Assembly: GCF_020405205.1 (NCBI RefSeq)
Contig: NZ_CP084469.1
Location: 1,550,001-1,614,000, forward strand
Origin: Natrinema salinisoli
GTDB lineage: Archaea; Halobacteriota; Halobacteria; Halobacteriales; Natrialbaceae
Reading direction: 5' to 3'
DNA length: 64,000 nt
Position numbers and translations under genes: made by a program. The notes beneath the pieces were generated by a model, which had not been told where the DNA came from, did no database searches, and saw only the letters and a list, made by a program, of their open reading frames with translations. This document shows positions 7,356 through 63,928 of the stretch, one piece after another (position 1 is the first letter of the stretch; each line of letters opens with the position of its first letter).

Positions 7356-7766
7356 AGGCGGTGATCGGTCCGGTCGATCCGGGGTGGTCCGGACGGCAGT
7401 ACTCGAGGTGGCGATCCGTCGGTACTCGTCGCGCCGGGCGGCCGGGCCCGTCTCGTCGTTCCGTCGACCGCTGGGGGCCGCCGAGAGGTGGCAGGATGCG
7501 TCGGTACCATACTCGCTCGAGCGTACCGGCGTGAGACGTATATACGGCACCGACAGTTCAGAACGACAGGGAGGAACTAACGGTCGGTCGGCGCGGCTGA
7601 GAGCCACATCGGACGCCCGTTCGATGCCGTGTGCCGTCCGGAGCGGTCGTCGACCATCGGGGCTCGATCCGCGCCACAGTGGCGATCCCGTGAACGATAG
7701 CCGACCGCATCGGGCGACCGCAGTAACCCGTGCATAGTAAGGCGATCGCCACACTGAGAGGATGAT
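7356..7766. other. Intergenic region between HTH gene and glmM
   Basis: No gene is supported. It serves as the divergent upstream region of the HTH gene and glmM. A 10-bp palindrome CGTATATACG lies at 7537-7546 and may be a TATA element. A GAGG purine stretch 7 bases before the glmM ATG may act as a ribosome binding site. Confidence 0.5.
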
Positions 7767-55451: not shown

Positions 55452-55536
55452 GCGCGGGTAGCCAAGCTAGGCCAACGGCGCAGCGCTTAGGACGCTGTCT
55501 CGTAGGAGTCCGCCGGTTCAAATCCGGTCCCGCGCA
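55452..55536 (+). tRNA. tRNA-Leu (anticodon TAG)
   Basis: Acceptor strands GCGCGGG and CCCGCGC pair exactly, with discriminator A and no encoded CCA. The anticodon loop is CTTAGGA (anticodon TAG) on a CAGCG/CGCTG stem. The long variable arm with CTC...GAG and the T loop TTCAAAT fit a class II tRNA-Leu. The integrase gene starts 45 bases after its 3' end, making this the likely attachment site of the element on its right. Confidence 0.95.
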
Positions 55537-55581
55537 CTCCAACCCTTACGCAGTCTCGCGGTTCTGCTTGCGCCAGCAACC

Positions 55582-56604
55582 ATGACCGCGAGACAAAACG
55601 AACGCTGCGACATTCAAATCGAGAGCGGTCGCAGCATCAAAATCGTACCTGAACCGAACGAAGAACAGTTGAACGAAAAGCAACTCGTCGATTACCGCGA
55701 GCACCGATGGGGATTCATCGAGTGGCTTCGGGAGAAGGGGAAGACTCCGGAGAAGCGCGAAGGCTACAGCGATTACACAACTTACGAGACGACGTACAAG
55801 ACCGCGCGGTTCGACCGGTGGGTATGGGGTGAAGAGGACCGATACACGGTCCCGCCAACACCTGACCGCGCGACCGAGTACATAGACGACGTCGTCGCAT
55901 ACCGTGACGTCACGAACGCAACGAAAGGCAAAACGGAGGAAGCCTTGATGCGGTACTACCGCTGGGCAGAGACGACGTCTCACACGCCCCCATGGGACCG
56001 AGAGCAACGATTCCGGTCCGGAGGGAACGATGCCCCGAGGGACTACCTAACCCGCCGTGAGCGACGCCTGGTGCGCGAGACAGCGTTAGACACCGGTGAC
56101 GGGTGGCGCGTCGCATCTCTTGTGCTCACGTCACTCGATACCGGTCTCCGCCCGGTCGAAGTCGCGCGAGCCCGCCCGGCGTGGGTCGATGTGCAGAACA
56201 TGCTGATGCAAATCCCGAAAGAAGAGTCCAGCAAGAACACGGAGAACTGGCGAGTCTCACTGACATCCAGGACCGCGACCGCGCTCGAACACTGGTTAAC
56301 TGAGCGCGAGACCATCGACAAATACGGCGATCGTGACGAACTGTGGTTGACGAGGGAAGCGACGCCGTACGGGTCACGGTCACTCGCACGGTTACTGCGG
56401 CGACTGTGCGACGACGCAGGCATCGACACCGGCGGCAGGTCAATGACGTGGTACGCAATCCGTCACAGCTTAGGGACGTACATGACCGCAGAGCGAGATC
56501 TCAAAGCGGCGAAGGACCAGCTCCGTCACAAGTCGGCGAAAACGACGATGAAGTACGACCAGGTACCTGCCGAGGACCGCCGCGACGCGCTAGACAACAT
56601 GTAG
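55582..56604 (+). CDS. int: Tyrosine site-specific integrase
   Basis: A 340-residue integrase. A SAM-like N-terminal core (about 30-130) is followed by the catalytic domain with R190 (SLDTGLRPVEVAR), a Lys turn (IPKEESSKN), Y291-x2-R294-H295 in WYAIRHSLGTYM, H316 in QLRHKSAKTT and nucleophile Y325 in MKYDQVP. The usual HxxR is YxxR here. It would catalyse element entry and exit at the tRNA-Leu gene 45 bases before it. Confidence 0.93.
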   Translation: MTARQNERCDIQIESGRSIKIVPEPNEEQLNEKQLVDYREHRWGFIEWLREKGKTPEKREGYSDYTTYETTYKTARFDRWVWGEEDRYTVPPTPDRATEYIDDVVAYRDVTNATKGKTEEALMRYYRWAETTSHTPPWDREQRFRSGGNDAPRDYLTRRERRLVRETALDTGDGWRVASLVLTSLDTGLRPVEVARARPAWVDVQNMLMQIPKEESSKNTENWRVSLTSRTATALEHWLTERETIDKYGDRDELWLTREATPYGSRSLARLLRRLCDDAGIDTGGRSMTWYAIRHSLGTYMTAERDLKAAKDQLRHKSAKTTMKYDQVPAEDRRDALDNM

Positions 56605-56685: not shown

Positions 56686-56706
56686 AAAAATTTGTAGTCT
56701 CGTTGC
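56686..56706 (+). repeat. Dispersed element repeat, copy 1
   Basis: AAAAATTTGTAG... ending in CTCGTTGC, 81 bases after the integrase stop. Identical to copies 2 and 4. Confidence 0.85.
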
Positions 56707-56841
56707 AAAACCGACCCTTCCCGTGCACGCACCAACACGAGCCGCGAGCGGCGCGTGAGCCAACCCTCACACCCAACACGACCCACACGACCACCCCGAC
56801 ACGAAGCCCAGCACGGCGCATGAGAGCCCCACAATGGCTCC

Positions 56842-56909
56842 GGGTAAATCCCCACGAAACGCCTTACACACCAAACACCCTCTTCGGATGAAACGACGTG
56901 TATTTACCC
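56842..56909. repeat. Spaced inverted repeat upstream of the recombinase-like gene
   Basis: GGGTAAAT (56842-56849) and ATTTACCC (56902-56909) are exact reverse complements. Related TTACCC/GGGTAT words recur to about 57060. They may be protein-binding sites in this 479-base gap, which otherwise holds no supported gene. Confidence 0.5.
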
Positions 56910-57083
56910 AGTGACTTACCCCAAACGAAGCGACGAGACGACGCGAAAAACTTTATCGACGTCGCAGCTACCGCGGCACGCACCCGGGTATCTACACACC
57001 CAGTAAACACCCACGTGAGAAACCCGTCGCGTAATTACCCAACCCGGTATTTCCGAGCGGCACCCCGACGTACGAGTGTAACA

Positions 57084-57782
57084 ATGACAAGCACAATCCT
57101 CCTCGCACGAGGCACCACGCCCGGGGAACGCGAACGCAGCATCGACACAATCCGCAGCTGGGCACGCGAACATAACGCCGGCATCCACCCAGACACCATC
57201 ACCGACCTGTACGAGTGGACCGAGTCGAACGCCACGACCGCCACAGCGAACCGCGACGACGAGTACCTATTCATCGTTCCCGGCGACGAGACCGCCCGCG
57301 ACCGGCAAGGCCCGGACGACCCCGCCGCCGCCGCAATCAACAAAGCATCGAGCGCGGCCGCAGCGAACCTCATCGTCGATTCCCTCGCAGGCATCAACAT
57401 CGACGCCGTCGCCCGGATAGTCACGCAAGACCGCGTACGCGTGCACGACGCCACGCACGCACTCACCGTTCACCCAGTCACCCGCGACCGCGACGACCTT
57501 CCCCCATCAACGCGACGAGCGCTGGAGGTGCTGGCCGGCACAGCCGACCATGCCGACGCGTTGCTCGCCGGGATCTCGTGGAACGGCGGGAGACCACCCT
57601 TGGGTTGCACGTCGGACGGCGCGCGACTCGCACCCGCCGACAACTACGACGACGTGTGTAGAGTGTTGCAACGCGTACGAGACGATGAACTATCGCAAAC
57701 CGAAGCATCGAACCGACTCGGATGCGCGCGCAAAACCGTCGGGAACGCGCTCGACCGCCCCGAACTCTACCGACTCGACTAA
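57084..57782 (+). CDS. Diverged serine-recombinase/resolvase-like protein with C-terminal HTH
   Basis: About 232 residues from MTSTILLARGTTPGERERSI. The C-terminal 60 residues (GRPPLGCTSDGARLAPADNY, VCRVLQRVRDDELSQTEAS and RLGCARKTVGNAL) look like the linker and helix-turn-helix of haloarchaeal serine recombinases. The N-terminal half shows no clear catalytic Ser-Arg site (no YxRVS/T motif), so it may be a degenerate recombinase working as a DNA-binding protein. It precedes the iteron region. A longer ATG at 56898 adds a region of repeats rather than protein-like text. Confidence 0.6.
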   Translation: MTSTILLARGTTPGERERSIDTIRSWAREHNAGIHPDTITDLYEWTESNATTATANRDDEYLFIVPGDETARDRQGPDDPAAAAINKASSAAAANLIVDSLAGINIDAVARIVTQDRVRVHDATHALTVHPVTRDRDDLPPSTRRALEVLAGTADHADALLAGISWNGGRPPLGCTSDGARLAPADNYDDVCRVLQRVRDDELSQTEASNRLGCARKTVGNALDRPELYRLD

Positions 57783-57870
57783 CGGCGAGGCGAGAGTCGA
57801 TGACTCCCGGTCACCGCGACCGGCACAGGCACCGCGAACCGCTCCGGTCACCCCGGACACACCCCCCGCT

Positions 57871-58173
57871 AAACCCCTGTCCGGCCTGAGCAGGTGCGAG
57901 AAGGCTTGATGCGTGTGATATCAAGGGGCGGACAGGCCGGACAAGGGTTTGGCCCCATTACCCCCTTACTCTACACTCTCAACACCAGTATACACTTTAT
58001 TGCGCCGATGTATACTACTGCAGAGAAGTGTTCACCGTTTCTTACTGAATTGGCCGATAACCCTTGTCCGCTTGTCCACCCCCTGAATTCTGCACGTAGA
58101 AGACTTGTACCGTGCTGTAAGCCCGGACAAGGGTTTGAGACAGGGTGTGTCCGGGGTGTCCACCCCTGTCCGG
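57871..58173. repeat. Five iteron-like repeats in alternating orientation (candidate origin)
   Basis: The motif CCGGACA(A/G)GGGTTT occurs forward at 57937-57950 and 58123-58136. It occurs as its reverse complement, with small changes, at 57871-57884, 58059-58070 and 58162-58173. Between the second and third copies, AGTATACA (57987-57994) and TGTATACT (58009-58016) form an AT-rich inverted repeat around 14 bases. Directional iterons flanking a melting-prone palindrome fit a plasmid or viral origin. The initiator is not identified. Confidence 0.65.
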
Positions 58174-58364
58174 AACAGACTATCGATGCAATCCGTGACA
58201 GGATGCGCTCACCGGTCAATGAGTATCGACCCTGTTGCGGAGCGGTTGCCTGTGTGAGGCGACCGGAGGGAGCCGAGTCCTGTTGGTGTGCGGGTGAGCG
58301 CGCGTCGTTGGTGTCGTCGATGCAATGGTTTTTCGGGAATCGCTGCACGGCGCGCGCCCCTTCT

Positions 58365-58385
58365 AAAAATTTGTAGTCTCGTTGC
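58365..58385 (+). repeat. Dispersed element repeat, copy 2
   Basis: The same 21-base sequence as copies 1 and 4, between the iteron block and the palindrome. Confidence 0.85.
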
Positions 58386-58471
58386 GGTTGTTCACGCGCG
58401 ATTCTCCGGTATGTTGAAGTGGCCTCGATTGTCCTTGACTTAAAGGTAGGCGAGTGGTGCTCTCCGGGTTA

Positions 58472-58489
58472 TGTTTCGTGCACGAAACA
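58472..58489. promoter_or_regulatory. Perfect 18-bp palindrome (operator candidate)
   Basis: TGTTTCGTGCACGAAACA is identical to its reverse complement. It lies about 120 bases before a TATA-like box and about 280 bases before the zinc-finger/helicase pair. Confidence 0.7.
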
Positions 58490-58610
58490 CGCAGACGCAC
58501 ATCGGAACCTAAACGAGCGTTAAGAGACTTCTACTCTGGGTTTAGGCGGTTCACTCGGTGGTTGGAGTGCCAATCGTGTAGTGACATCCTGGACCCCCTG
58601 CCTACCAGCC

Positions 58611-58616
58611 TTTATA
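58611..58616 (+). promoter_or_regulatory. TATA-like box before the replication operon
   Basis: TTTATA (as CCTTTATACG) would start a transcript near 58638, giving about 125 bases of leader before the ATG at 58765. Weak single-site evidence. Confidence 0.35.
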
Positions 58617-58764
58617 CGTCTACCGTCGATATGATAATGTAACTCGGTAGCAACCGCCCGCTAACAACCGCATCCGCTCAATCCCTGGATGCTAGACCAA
58701 ATGAAAATCGGTTGCGGCGCGCCACAACGCGCCGCCCTTGCGTGTCACCGGGGGAGTCACTCCA

Positions 58765-59235
58765 ATGACACGAGAATCTAACGGTACGACGGCTGATAAA
58801 ACCGCTGGCTTCAACGCGAAGCCAGTGTCTGTAGTATTGAACGGTAACCAAATCGAAGCGCAGCACCACATTACGAGCGCGAACAACCGGTTGCTGCACC
58901 TGTACATCGAATCCCGGACCGGCGGGATTGACGTGACGGTCCCGCTGTGCAGCGATAAACCAGCGTACGCACGGTCAGACCGCGGTAAAGCGGCGCTCGG
59001 TATCGGTACTGACGATGAGGAACCTCGACTCGTGGCGGACGGCGGTCAGCGAGTTGGTCGGTACACCGACAACGGTCAGCGTTTCTGTTCCGAGTGCGGT
59101 GACCCCGTTGACGACGGGTTGTGGTGCTCGGACGAGTGCAAGGACGAGTACTGGGACAGTGAGCCGGACCTTGGAACGCGTGATGATGACGAAGAGGTAG
59201 AGCGGTACAACCACGCGACTGGGAGGTGGCACTAA
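58765..59235 (+). CDS. Element-encoded zinc-finger protein
   Basis: A 156-residue protein. The first 70 residues carry strand-rich text (PVSVVLNGNQIEAQHHITS). A zinc-finger-like block FCSECGDPVDDGLWCSDEC lies near residues 108-126 (C-x2-C and C-x3-C), followed by an acidic end. It starts at ATG 58765-58767; an in-frame 58738 start adds nine residues. Its stop overlaps the helicase ATG (TAATG), so the two are co-translated. It may guide the helicase to DNA; that is inference. Confidence 0.78.
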   Translation: MTRESNGTTADKTAGFNAKPVSVVLNGNQIEAQHHITSANNRLLHLYIESRTGGIDVTVPLCSDKPAYARSDRGKAALGIGTDDEEPRLVADGGQRVGRYTDNGQRFCSECGDPVDDGLWCSDECKDEYWDSEPDLGTRDDDEEVERYNHATGRWH

Positions 59236-62207
59236 TGCCACGAGACGAGCGGCACGATCGTGGCGATGACGAGGAGCAGTTACCGGACATGAACGCGGAC
59301 GACGCGCTGGACGGTGTGACGACCGCGGACAGCATCGACTCCAACGACGACGTTGACCTGGGTGTTGACATGGACGCCGGTGACGTGAACGAGTTAGACC
59401 CGGTGGTGAACAGTGACGGGACGGTCGTCGCCCACCCGGTCGGTCTTGAAGCGCTCGCAGACCCTGAATCAGGGAAGTACGCGTGCATCGAGTGTGACGC
59501 TCGGTCCGGAAGCGAGCACGCGGCGAAGGTTCACTTCGGGAAATCACACCCGAACCACGACCCCGACGACGACGTTGACACGGGCGCGAGTTCCGCGTCA
59601 GTGGACGTGGACATCGTCGAAGTTGCGAACGAGTACATCGATGAGCGTATTCGGGAAGCCGGACTCGCATCGGACCCGAGCGACCACGACTACGGTGACG
59701 TGCCGGACGTGGACGGCGTGACGCTTCGCGCGGCGAAGCACACGCACTCGCGGTTCACGGACGTCGTCGTTGCGGTCGAGAACGGCGTGGATACCGGTGA
59801 CGTTCTCGATGTCATCGAGGCAATGCCGCACGGGTCACAGGATGCGAAGATAGGGTCCGTGTACATAATCATCGCTGACCGCCCGCAGAACCTTCACGGA
59901 GCGTACGACGACCTGCAGGGTAGTCTCAGTGATTACGGGCACGTGACCGACGTGATGGGAGTCGAAGCTGACGGCAGTGTCGTCACCGCGGAACCACCAG
60001 TCACCCCGGACGAAACAGACGATGCGGAAGACTGGAGTGACTTAGATATCGGCACGACCGACGATGACGACGACGGTGGTGCTGTCGATGACGATGAGAT
60101 AACGTGGGGCGACGTCCGCGACGCGTACGCGAACGCTCGCGTACAAGCGTCACCGGTCACTCGGAACGACGCTCGTGACCGAGTCGTCGCCGTGCTCGAA
60201 AGTGAATGCGAGTGGATGAGTATCGTTGAACGGTCGGAACCCGGGAAGTACGACTTGTGGCATCTCACCGGCGACGGGTGGCAAGAAGACGGGTACACGC
60301 ACGTTGAAACGCAGATGCGGACCGAGCTCGGTGCAATCGCATCGGACACGGAAGTCGGTCACATCGTCGCGCAGTTGGCGACCGTGAATTACGTCGAGCA
60401 GGAGGAAACGAACGCCCGGCACCTCGATGAAACGTTCATCCCGGTCGGGAATGGTGTCATCAACGTAGACGACATCGAGTACGACCCGGCGACGATGACA
60501 ATCGACTGGGACACCGTCACCGTGCAGGACATGGACTCGGAACACCGGTTCCTGTACAGAGTTGAAACTGACTGGGATCCCGAGAACGCGGACCTGGACG
60601 GACTCGATGAATGGCTCGAAACCATTACTCGCACCGACGAAGAACGACGGTTAATCTGGGAGTTCGCCGGGCACTCGGCGCACCCAAGGTACCCAGCGGA
60701 CGGGTTCACCGTGTTCAACGGGCGCGGCGGGTCGGGTAAGTCACAGACGCTCGAAGTGATTAAAGCGATGCTCGGCGGTTCGAACGTCGCGGTTGAGACG
60801 ATGCAATCGATTCAAACCGAGCGGTTCGCCGGTCGGCGAGTTGTCGATAAGCGCGCGAACATCAACACCGAGTTAGAAGGCACGAAAATGCCGAGTATCG
60901 GGACGCTCAAGACGTTCAGTGCTGGTGAGGAAGTGAGTGTCGAGGGGAAGGGAACCGCGGCATTCGACGCGCTTAACGACGCGACGATGATGTTCGCGTC
61001 AGATTCCCCGCCGGCGTTCCCGCAGTCGAACCGCGCGGTTGGTCGCCGGGTGTACCCGGTCGAGTTCCCGTGCATCTACAAGAGCGACCCGGACCCCGAC
61101 AATCCGCTCGAACTCCAGTCACGACCGAAAGGCAAGGTGCAGGACGAGTTGCAGGCGGACGCGCGACTCAAAGCCGCGTTGATGCGTGCCGTGGAAGGGC
61201 TCGTGCGAATACTCCGTGAGGGTGATTTCACGAGCGAGCTCACCGAGAACGAGCGCTTGGAGAAGTACGAGTCGTTCGCCGACCCCATCCGCGACTCGGT
61301 ACGCGAGTGCGTGCAGCCGTGCAGTGACGGTGTCATCGAGTCCGGTGACCTTGAAAGGACGCTCGGTGCGTACATGGATATGGCTGGGCACGACGGGAAG
61401 AAGATGCAGCAAATCTGGAACGTCATGCAGGAAATGACGGACATCCCAGTCACCAAGGACCGCACGCGGACCTTCGCTGAAGATAAGGAGAAGCACACGG
61501 TTTACGAAGGCATCGGGTTCACCGACGCCGCGCTGGAGCACTGTGTCCCTGATTCGGCGTACTGGGGCGAGTACACGGACCAGGACGACGTCGAGGACGA
61601 CGAGTTCGAAGGCGTGGAACTCGGTGAAATCACTGACCCCGGTCGGTACGACGCGGTGAAAGTCACGGTCGCGTCAGTGGAAGATGAACCGGCACCGTGG
61701 CTGCACGACCAGGGTGTCCTGATGGATGACAGTCACTCGCTCCGGTACGAGGTGCAGTCTGGGATCTCGCTCGATGAAGGCGAGGTGTACGTGCTCCGTG
61801 ACGTCATCGTAGCGAAGGACGAAGCGGACCTGAAGATGCAACTCATCGACGGGATGACTGACGTGTTCCGCATCGAGGAGCGGGATGACGAGCAGGACGC
61901 CGCAGTGGAAGACCCGGAGACTGGTGACTCGCCCGGATACGCAGACGACAGTGAAGACTCAGGAACGGTTGAGGAACCCGCGTACCGTGACGGTGACGGC
62001 GACGAAGCCGATGACAGGGTGACGGTGAAGGACATCGTCAGCAACGTGGAAGACGCGCACGATGACGGTGCGCCGGTCGATAAAGTCATCGAGCTCGCAA
62101 TGCACGACGCCGGTCTCGACCGCGGTGAAGTCGAGCACAAGTTGGAGAAACTCCGGCACACGGGCGACGTGTACGAACCGTCGAAAAACCTGTTGAGGGT
62201 GGTCTAA
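59235..62207 (+). CDS. SF3 (D5/P4-type) replicative helicase with OB-like and MCM-like winged-helix ends
   Basis: 990 residues. An acidic N-terminus is followed by a C2H2-like finger (C84, C87, H100, H105 in YACIECDARSG...FGKSHPNH). A D5_N-like region (about 310-480) precedes the SF3 ATPase with Walker A GRGGSGKS (496-503), a possible Walker B around RANINTELEG, and Arg-rich NRAVGRRVYPVE. After a helical part (640-760), residues about 797-880 look like an OB fold (YDAVKVTVASVEDEPAPW). The last 60 residues (VKDIVSNVEDAHDDGAPVDKVIEL...VYEPSKNLLRVV) resemble the archaeal MCM winged helix. No AEP primase DxD was found. Confidence 0.85.
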   Translation: MPRDERHDRGDDEEQLPDMNADDALDGVTTADSIDSNDDVDLGVDMDAGDVNELDPVVNSDGTVVAHPVGLEALADPESGKYACIECDARSGSEHAAKVHFGKSHPNHDPDDDVDTGASSASVDVDIVEVANEYIDERIREAGLASDPSDHDYGDVPDVDGVTLRAAKHTHSRFTDVVVAVENGVDTGDVLDVIEAMPHGSQDAKIGSVYIIIADRPQNLHGAYDDLQGSLSDYGHVTDVMGVEADGSVVTAEPPVTPDETDDAEDWSDLDIGTTDDDDDGGAVDDDEITWGDVRDAYANARVQASPVTRNDARDRVVAVLESECEWMSIVERSEPGKYDLWHLTGDGWQEDGYTHVETQMRTELGAIASDTEVGHIVAQLATVNYVEQEETNARHLDETFIPVGNGVINVDDIEYDPATMTIDWDTVTVQDMDSEHRFLYRVETDWDPENADLDGLDEWLETITRTDEERRLIWEFAGHSAHPRYPADGFTVFNGRGGSGKSQTLEVIKAMLGGSNVAVETMQSIQTERFAGRRVVDKRANINTELEGTKMPSIGTLKTFSAGEEVSVEGKGTAAFDALNDATMMFASDSPPAFPQSNRAVGRRVYPVEFPCIYKSDPDPDNPLELQSRPKGKVQDELQADARLKAALMRAVEGLVRILREGDFTSELTENERLEKYESFADPIRDSVRECVQPCSDGVIESGDLERTLGAYMDMAGHDGKKMQQIWNVMQEMTDIPVTKDRTRTFAEDKEKHTVYEGIGFTDAALEHCVPDSAYWGEYTDQDDVEDDEFEGVELGEITDPGRYDAVKVTVASVEDEPAPWLHDQGVLMDDSHSLRYEVQSGISLDEGEVYVLRDVIVAKDEADLKMQLIDGMTDVFRIEERDDEQDAAVEDPETGDSPGYADDSEDSGTVEEPAYRDGDGDEADDRVTVKDIVSNVEDAHDDGAPVDKVIELAMHDAGLDRGEVEHKLEKLRHTGDVYEPSKNLLRVV

Positions 62208-62834
62208 ATGCCAGGAGTGACGTTCGACCGAATGGCGAAAATCCGGCACAACCGTTCGACACTGCACCGGCTCCCCGCGCCGGGCGTCAGGTGGCGGTGG
62301 GGTGACGTCGTCGATGATTACGGTGACGGTGACGATGCTAAGGTGTCGAAGAAGGATGCGTACGCCGTGAAGCCGTTGTTACGGAAGGTCGATGACGGTG
62401 TGTACGAGACGACCGAGCGACTCGCGGAGTACCTCGATGATATGTGGGGCATCGAAGTCGGTGCGAACGGCGGCGCGGGTCAGTCGCGGCTCCCGGTTGA
62501 GACGGCCGTCACGGGCGAGTCACGGACGTTGACTGACGGGTCCGGGTCACCGCCCGACTCGGGCGGTGAACGCCGGCAGGCGGCGTTGGACGGGTCTGAT
62601 GCGACCGCGGATGTGCGAGCGGTCGCAGTGCAGGAAGACCCGCGGGTCATCGGGGCGTACAAGAGGAATCCGTCGCCGAAGCACGATACCGCCGCGCAGG
62701 ATGCGGGGCAGGCGGGTCTCGATGCGTTCACCGTGACCGGCGACGCTGGCGCGGTGCCGGGTGACGTGGACGCGTTCACAGTGACTGAGTGGGTCGGCCG
62801 ATTCCGTCGGCCGACCGGGAACGTGTACGCGTAA
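62208..62834 (+). CDS. Element-encoded hypothetical protein following the helicase
   Basis: 208 residues. Start MPGVTFDRMAKIRHNRSTLHR directly follows the helicase stop (TAA-ATG), so it belongs to the same operon. Residues 30-85 have WRWGDVVDDYGDGDDAKVSK and YETTERLAEYLDDMWGIEV. A short DAFTVT text appears twice near the end. The middle is low-complexity. No family recognised. Confidence 0.65.
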   Translation: MPGVTFDRMAKIRHNRSTLHRLPAPGVRWRWGDVVDDYGDGDDAKVSKKDAYAVKPLLRKVDDGVYETTERLAEYLDDMWGIEVGANGGAGQSRLPVETAVTGESRTLTDGSGSPPDSGGERRQAALDGSDATADVRAVAVQEDPRVIGAYKRNPSPKHDTAAQDAGQAGLDAFTVTGDAGAVPGDVDAFTVTEWVGRFRRPTGNVYA

Positions 62835-62860
62835 CCCTTCGAGCACCCTTTCGAACTCGG

Positions 62861-62882
62861 AAAAATTTGTAGTTTGTCGTTG
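62861..62882 (+). repeat. Dispersed element repeat, copy 3 (variant)
   Basis: AAAAATTTGTAGT followed by TTGTCGTTG, 26 bases after the operon's last stop codon. The first 13 bases match the other copies; the rest differs slightly. Confidence 0.7.
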
Positions 62883-62990
62883 TAGTCGCGGGCGGCGTAC
62901 AAGGCTTCTACGCCGTGTTTCTAAGGGTTTCAGCCGGCCGTGTACTGTGAAGCGGTACGGTCGTGCTCACAGTACGCGACCATCCTGTCG

Positions 62991-63359
62991 TCAGTCGATG
63001 TACTCGGTTGGGTCGAGTGACCACCACGCATCGACGCGGCAGTTAACATCATCGACGTGCGACCACTTATCGCTCGATTCCCGCCCGTCGCCAGCTGTTT
63101 GTAGCCGGTCACCGTTCAGCGTTTTCACTCGATGCATGATGTCTTCCCCATCGATATTCACGGAGACGATGTCATCGACTGCGATATCGTCAGGGTGGAC
63201 GTCGGTGCAGTGAGCGACGATGGGTGCGTTCATCGTTGGTTCCATCGAATCGCCCGTGGCGGTCCGAAAGTCCGGGTGGGCGGCGATGACGGTGAGCGCG
63301 GCGAGGACAGTGCAGAGAACGGCGAGTGCGGCGATCGTGGCGACGCGGTCCGTGTTCAT
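62991..63359 (-). CDS. S26-family signal peptidase
   Basis: 122 residues. MNTDRVATIAALAVLCTVLAA is an N-terminal membrane anchor, followed by ATGDSMEPTMN with catalytic Ser38, and GEDIMHRVK with H76, the general base in archaeal/ER-type enzymes. It is shorter than the cellular enzyme (about 250 or more). It would cut signal peptides of element-encoded or surface proteins. Longer frames run into the 21-base repeat. Confidence 0.82.
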   Translation of the reverse strand: MNTDRVATIAALAVLCTVLAALTVIAAHPDFRTATGDSMEPTMNAPIVAHCTDVHPDDIAVDDIVSVNIDGEDIMHRVKTLNGDRLQTAGDGRESSDKWSHVDDVNCRVDAWWSLDPTEYID

Positions 63360-63408
63360 ACTCGATTCTACTGTGAACGCTCGGAAGTACCGGGTTCCCG
63401 GCTCTCTC

Positions 63409-63429
63409 AAAAATTTGTAGTCTCGTTGC
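63409..63429 (+). repeat. Dispersed element repeat, copy 4
   Basis: Identical to copies 1 and 2, lying about 50 bases upstream of the signal peptidase start on the other strand. Confidence 0.85.
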
Positions 63430-63535
63430 ACTCCCGTGCGCGTGACCCCGTGAACCCCGGGAACCCCTTATTTACGAGCATTGCCCCGAGCGGGCGGTAA
63501 GGCGTTCGCAAGAAATCGAGCGCTGGCTACAACAA

Positions 63536-63928
63536 ATGGCACGAAACGAACTAGACGTCATCGACTACGTACCGGTCGCACTGTACCCGGTTTTCGTCGG
63601 CATCATGCTGGCGATTTTCGAGTTCAGTGTCAGTATCTTCGGAGGCTTCGACCTCAATCAGGTCCTGTACTCCGGGAGCGGCATCGAAGTGACACTCGCA
63701 GGCGCGCTCGCACTCGCGTCAGGCGGAGCAATCGTCGCAACGAACGAAATCGACGGGAGCGATTACGAAACCTGGGAGTACGGTGCAATCCTCGCAGTGT
63801 TCCTGTTCCCGCTCGGCGTGATGCTCATCCCGGCAGTCGGGACGGCCATCATGACGTACGAGCTGGTGACGGTTGCGGTGTGGCTCATTGCGACCGTCGG
63901 GTCGGTGTGGGTCGCTTACACCGAGTAA
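63536..63928 (+). CDS. Small multi-pass membrane protein of the mobile element
   Basis: 130 residues, start MARNELDVIDYVPVALYPVF. Four hydrophobic segments (about residues 12-32, 50-70, 84-104, 107-127). No soluble domain. In pleolipoviruses a small four-helix membrane protein (VP3-like) sits next to the spike gene, but no sequence match is claimed here. Confidence 0.75.
   Translation: MARNELDVIDYVPVALYPVFVGIMLAIFEFSVSIFGGFDLNQVLYSGSGIEVTLAGALALASGGAIVATNEIDGSDYETWEYGAILAVFLFPLGVMLIPAVGTAIMTYELVTVAVWLIATVGSVWVAYTE

Follow-up and report, generated by a model that had tools for sequence, protein, structure and literature searches.

A directional repeat that probably marks operon ends in a family of pleolipovirus-like haloarchaeal proviruses

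What is the role of a 21-base sequence that recurs in four gene gaps of a single mobile element, always in the same orientation? We addressed this question in a 64-kb window of Natrinema salinisoli (the window being the whole stretch of DNA analyzed), where a 12-mer, AAAAATTTGTAG, begins at 56686, 58365, 62861, and 63409, each time on the plus strand. Chance alone predicts 0.02 matches to this 12-mer in the window, and none of 100 shuffles reached four. A first-pass annotation had described three exact 21-mers and a variant at 62861, all equally oriented and all between genes. These observations were borne out, with the copies falling in the int–res, res–p156, p208–S26, and S26–VP3 gaps (Table 1). 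Copy 4 overlaps an open reading frame (ORF) only if translation of S26 is taken to start at a GTG upstream of the ATG at 63359. The proposed specificity to the element also held: with up to three mismatches allowed, the 4.70-Mb genome contains no other 21-mer site, nor does it contain a fifth match to the 12-mer, and the wider motif is confined to one provirus family. The flanks of the four copies share only 18–33% identity and are unrelated, which identifies the copies as discrete short sites rather than segments or remnants of a longer duplication.

Table 1. Repeat copies, promoter-like sites, and genes of the provirus within the window
Feature	Coordinates	Strand	Context or evidence
tRNA-Leu, integration target and provirus left end	55452..55537	+	
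Tyrosine integrase (int)	55582..56604	+	Pfam Phage_integrase, E 3.5e-15
Copy 1, exact 21-mer	56686..56706	+	int–res gap, 82 nt past integrase stop
Promoter-like repeat GGTATTTCCGAGC	57046..57058	+	Upstream of res
res, resolvase-like (by eye) with C-terminal helix-turn-helix (weak HTH matches)	57084..57782	+	
Copy 2, exact 21-mer	58365..58385	+	res–p156 gap, 583 nt past res stop, ~400 nt ahead of p156
p156, function not assigned	58765..59235	+	Relatives in G281, G149, G391, G321
Primase-helicase (DUF5906)	59235..62207	+	Pfam DUF5906, E 2.8e-12; PHROG DNA primase, E 1.6e-38
p208, function not assigned, last gene of primase operon	62208..62834	+	Relatives in G149, G281, G310, G391
Copy 3, variant AAAAATTTGTAGTTTGTCGTTGTAGT	62861..62886	+	p208–S26 gap, 27 nt past p208 stop, convergent with S26
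S26 signal-peptidase-like, convergent with p208	62991..63359	-	Pfam Peptidase_S26, E 0.0017, below curated cut-off; relative in G149
Promoter-like repeat GGTACTTCCGAGC	63379..63391	-	Upstream of S26
Copy 4, exact 21-mer	63409..63429	+	S26–VP3 gap, between divergent S26 and VP3 promoter-like sites
Promoter-like repeat CTTATTTACGAGC	63467..63479	+	Upstream of VP3
VP3-like membrane protein, first gene of virion module	63536..63928	+	phrog_3232; matches SNJ2, HRPV-3

Judged from its genes, the host element is a provirus of pleolipovirus-like type, integrated in a tRNA-Leu gene. It spans ~25.6 kb and extends ~17 kb past the window end, where a 60-bp copy of the 3' part of the tRNA-Leu gene near window coordinate 81076 forms its right end. 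Within the virion module, the VP3-like, spike-like, membrane, and NTPase proteins match phrog_3232, phrog_2231, phrog_3526, and phrog_1979, respectively; the VP3-like, spike-like, and NTPase genes stand in the order sought for a pleolipovirus, and the NTPase is ~41% identical to those of the pleolipoviruses HHPV3 and HHPV4. These PHROG matches, together with the NTPase identity, indicate a pleolipovirus-like provirus in which a primase module replaces the Orc1-type gene of SNJ2 and Harhisp1: the records of those two viruses annotate Orc1-type replication genes, whereas the provirus in the window has the DUF5906 primase. Among five isolated betapleolipoviruses (SNJ2, HHPV3, HHPV4, HRPV-3, and Harhisp1), NTPase relatives are present in all five, VP3-like relatives in SNJ2 and HRPV-3, and HJR-like relatives in all but HRPV-3.

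Several other features of the provirus were recorded. By eye, res apparently lacks a catalytic serine; full-length relatives exist in G149 and G281, and 69 of the 391 class genomes contain relatives of its C-terminal part. The virion region includes a TatA-like gene (L004:15059-15307; Pfam TatA_B_E, E 3.7e-17) that is also present in G149, and the spike-like protein gave a weak TAT-signal match. Near the right end lies a second tyrosine-recombinase-like gene (L005:3870-4559); G122 contains a similar-looking 224-aa ORF with the motif directly after it. In the res–p156 gap, inverted repeats on CCGGACAAGGGTTTG / AAACCCCTGTCCGG surround an AT-rich stretch (57846-58161), and together these form a candidate replication origin.

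Related proviruses, gathered through relatives of the primase, revealed that the four window copies are part of a degenerate family. The same motif occurs on the gene strand in proviruses of G281 (Halorubrum aidingense), G391 (Hrr. coriense), G179, G149, and G122. In an alignment of 19 copies, a C-rich tract is followed by A3-5, T3-5, and then GTRGTTG-like units at variable spacing, the typical order being C-rich tract, AAAA, TTT(T), and GTRGTTG units. We built a sequence-only motif model from most of the family copies; given this training, its independent information lies in the absence of matches elsewhere and in the extra copies found. At E <= 1e-3, the model matched 6 of the 391 class genomes, in every case at proviruses of this kind. 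The window's genome yielded seven such matches, all on the plus strand of the provirus. A scan at full sensitivity brought the total to nine, with two weaker copies in the same provirus and orientation. The count of four copies in the first-pass annotation is thus accurate for the window but describes only a subset, as at least five more related copies lie in the provirus beyond the window end.

Elsewhere in these genomes, the motif is almost absent. It is absent from the five isolated betapleolipoviruses named above, and two related primase proviruses (G310 and G321) have no clear copies. Searches of IMG/VR with the exact 21-mer and related patterns returned no haloarchaeal match; hits to some of the patterns were chance-like and fell in unrelated contigs. 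Scanning viral contigs at the protein level also yielded no relatives. Weak model matches in G211, G288, G095, G360, and other genomes lie partly outside recognizable proviruses and were set aside as probable chance.

Copies lie on the gene strand, typically 5–100 nt past the final stop codon of a gene block. Of 20 copies, 15 are located 110 nt or less past a same-strand stop, compared with 14.8% of random intergenic positions; the nominal P of 3e-9 is too small and overstates the evidence because the copies partly share a common descent. A sixteenth copy (G122, 11317) follows the true p208 stop by 7 nt once p208 is read correctly. The positions are syntenic, with a copy after the integrase in five proviruses (copy 1 and its counterparts in four others), after p208 in four (copy 3 and its counterparts in G281, G122, and G149), and after an HJR-like gene in three. 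With a looser pattern, every intergenic match was on the gene strand; one G122 copy, at 7652, is inside an 84-aa ORF. On the gene strand, three matches outside the model's training set also fall at stop codons or just past them: after the spike gene of the window's provirus, after an integrase-like gene, and at the HJR end of G149. The operon-end reading predicts this position, and the test could have gone against it. Within the window, the exact copies that were noted first are the less typical ones, and the variant copy 3 is of the typical post-stop type.

We therefore interpret the repeat as a signal for operon punctuation in a family of pleolipovirus-like proviruses. Most likely it is a transcription terminator, or 3'-end-forming site, a reading to which we assign a probability of roughly 55%. 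Termination itself is inferred from the gene-strand orientation, provirus specificity, post-stop placement, and makeup of the motif. RNA polymerase carrying an operon transcript would release the RNA, or the RNA would be cut, within the U/G-rich tract. On the opposite strand, the run of A4-5 reads as T4-5, such that the convergent copy at 62861 could end both transcripts and the signal may be bidirectional. The first-pass annotation had listed partition, terminator, packaging, and regulatory RNA sites as candidates. Of these, a terminator or 3' RNA signal agrees best with the restriction to the gene strand, the mostly post-stop position, and the succession of a short A tract and a U/G-rich tract.

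Stretches of T terminate transcripts in Haloferax volcanii, with T5C being very efficient (PMC7237163), and in Methanococcus maripaludis termination is brought about by aCPSF1 with a U-tract (PMC8716108). As in H. volcanii, the provirus copies are located after genes on the gene strand, are AT/U-rich in a GC-rich genome, and need no hairpin. The 10 nt upstream of the copies contain 44% C, and the 22 nt downstream contain 44% T and 29% G, the corresponding values for intergenic DNA being 22% and 28%. The interval between GTRGTTG units varies, which favors recognition in flexible RNA over a rigid contact with DNA. The longest sense-strand T runs are T6 at the post-spike copy and T5 at L005 509 and in G179, while most others are T3-4. 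In contrast to the H. volcanii terminators, T is mostly 3–4 long and followed by GTRGTTG, a C-rich tract and A4-5 come before it, and the sequence is kept only among related proviruses. The provirus signal falls short of T5C in most copies yet is U/G-rich, and it would thus be a variant of the T-stretch signal. The copies are conserved over at least 12 bases, more strictly than a generic U-tract terminator would require, and this points to a specific binding factor. The res-like protein as binding factor was rejected as the sole explanation, given that G122 has the motif but no detected res.

Folding of the 80 nt downstream of the copies produced no consistent or conserved hairpin, and hairpins seen by eye at several copies were not significant relative to shuffles. 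No stable stem of the bacterial terminator type consistently precedes the T run, terminator-like sites on L004 are at chance level (16 vs 15.7), and an Rfam covariance-model search of L004 and L005 returned no match. These results also bear on a possible, though rather unlikely, alternative: that the motif acts in the 3' UTR as an RNA element to protect, process, or regulate mRNA without termination, for example as a GU-rich site bound by an RNA-binding protein. Such an element would share the post-stop placement and gene strand of a terminator, and the strong base-level conservation and U/G-rich makeup with variable spacing are in keeping with it. However, the copies at 58365 and 63409 lie outside any obvious 3' UTR, and a conserved RNA structure and an Rfam match are both lacking.

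A second repeat, GGTATTTACGAGC, with the fullest form CCGGGAACCCGGTATTTACGAGC, occurs eight times in the provirus with two or fewer mismatches, mostly ~25–60 nt upstream of start codons; in addition to the window sites in Table 1, further sites are present on L004 and L005 beyond the window. All four exact genome matches to CCGGGAACCCGGTATTTACGAGC lie inside the provirus. This repeat is likely the provirus's own promoter. Along the plus strand, the motif and GGTATTTACGAGC tend to succeed one another, with GGTATTTACGAGC located after the copies and upstream of the next genes. This succession supports the punctuation reading, short of proof.

Intergenic repeats of halovirus HF2 (classes I and II) have been shown to be promoters (PMC8707807), and like our motif they are virus-specific, directional, AT-containing, located in gene gaps, and kept in position among related viruses. 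An HF2-like promoter, which would lie just upstream of start codons with TATA and BRE spacing, was nevertheless a poor fit to the placement. The provirus motif, in contrast to the HF2 repeats, is mostly found after stop codons, and the promoter-like repeat is the separate GGTATTTACGAGC. Only copy 4 lies within ~130 nt of a start codon; the others are ~310–400 nt or more away or lie past terminal genes. The first-pass annotation likewise held that the spacing does not suit a simple promoter set. Its supporting statement that only copy 4 precedes a gene on the expected strand was incorrect, since copies 1 and 2 also lie ~400 nt before plus-strand genes.

The other main rival of the terminator reading is that the motif is an operator or insulator at which a regulator encoded by the provirus, for instance the res-like HTH protein, binds DNA. 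Copy 1 lies ~400 nt ahead of res, copies in G281, G391, G179, and G149 precede res by ~310–350 nt, and copy 4 stands between two promoter-like sites; provirus specificity and good conservation would also suit an operator. We regard this as unlikely, since placement tracks stop codons rather than promoters, the motif is not palindromic and varies in internal spacing, and no relative of res was detected in G122, which has five copies.

Within the window, copies 2 and 4 depart from the usual placement, the nearest stop on their strand lying 583 and 575 nt away, respectively. The res–p156 gap that holds copy 2 has degenerate sites in G391 and G149, and the S26–VP3 gap of G149 lacks a counterpart of copy 4. 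If the motif is a terminator, the copies at 58365 and 63409, which do not directly follow a stop codon, would have to be insulators in front of the primase and virion operons, respectively.

Two further readings treat the motif as a DNA site of the mobile element, and we consider both very improbable. In the first, it is a module-boundary recombination site for the exchange of gene blocks, comparable to the cassette-end sites of integrons. Like integron attC sites, the copies are directional, lie right past the stop codon of each unit, and adjoin a tyrosine integrase gene. There is one copy per gene-block end, in the same orientation, and gene content differs past boundary copies: restriction-modification-type genes follow the p208-end copy in G281 (L047, L172), in the place of the virion genes of the window's provirus. 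However, module boundaries naturally fall at operon ends in any case, and the motif, unlike attC, is unrelated to the tRNA-Leu att sequence of the integrase, has no conserved hairpin, and is common to proviruses with different or unrecognized integrases. In the second reading, several directional copies in one mobile element, including copy 2 near the origin-like inverted repeats, would be partition, packaging, or replication sites. Partition and packaging, both listed in the first-pass annotation, are not supported, as the sites are directional and lie at gene ends across proviruses with different integrases and virion modules. The copies track stop codons whatever module is present, the motif is missing from the isolated pleolipoviruses checked, and no partition-type gene was recognized among the searched proteins of the annotated part of the provirus (a set that leaves out several small genes at 75.5k–80k).

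Returning to the operon-end reading, the copies lie downstream of genes on the coding strand, as a terminator should. A more elaborate form, offered tentatively and judged improbable, is a virus-family-specific termination code. Here, a GU-rich 3'-end signal would be read by a provirus factor, or in an unusual manner by a host cleavage factor, and together with the private promoter GGTATTTACGAGC it would run the operons apart from those of the host.

We found no description of the motif in the open-access literature, searched to limited depth. Termination in archaeal viruses is little described, and a literature search on the topic gave only a general review. A conserved, compact, and directional end-of-operon sequence represents a directly testable signal. 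The motif is also a marker for finding this group of proviruses and a possible tool for haloarchaeal genetics. With the motif paired to the promoter-like repeat, the provirus would be an example of private operon punctuation.
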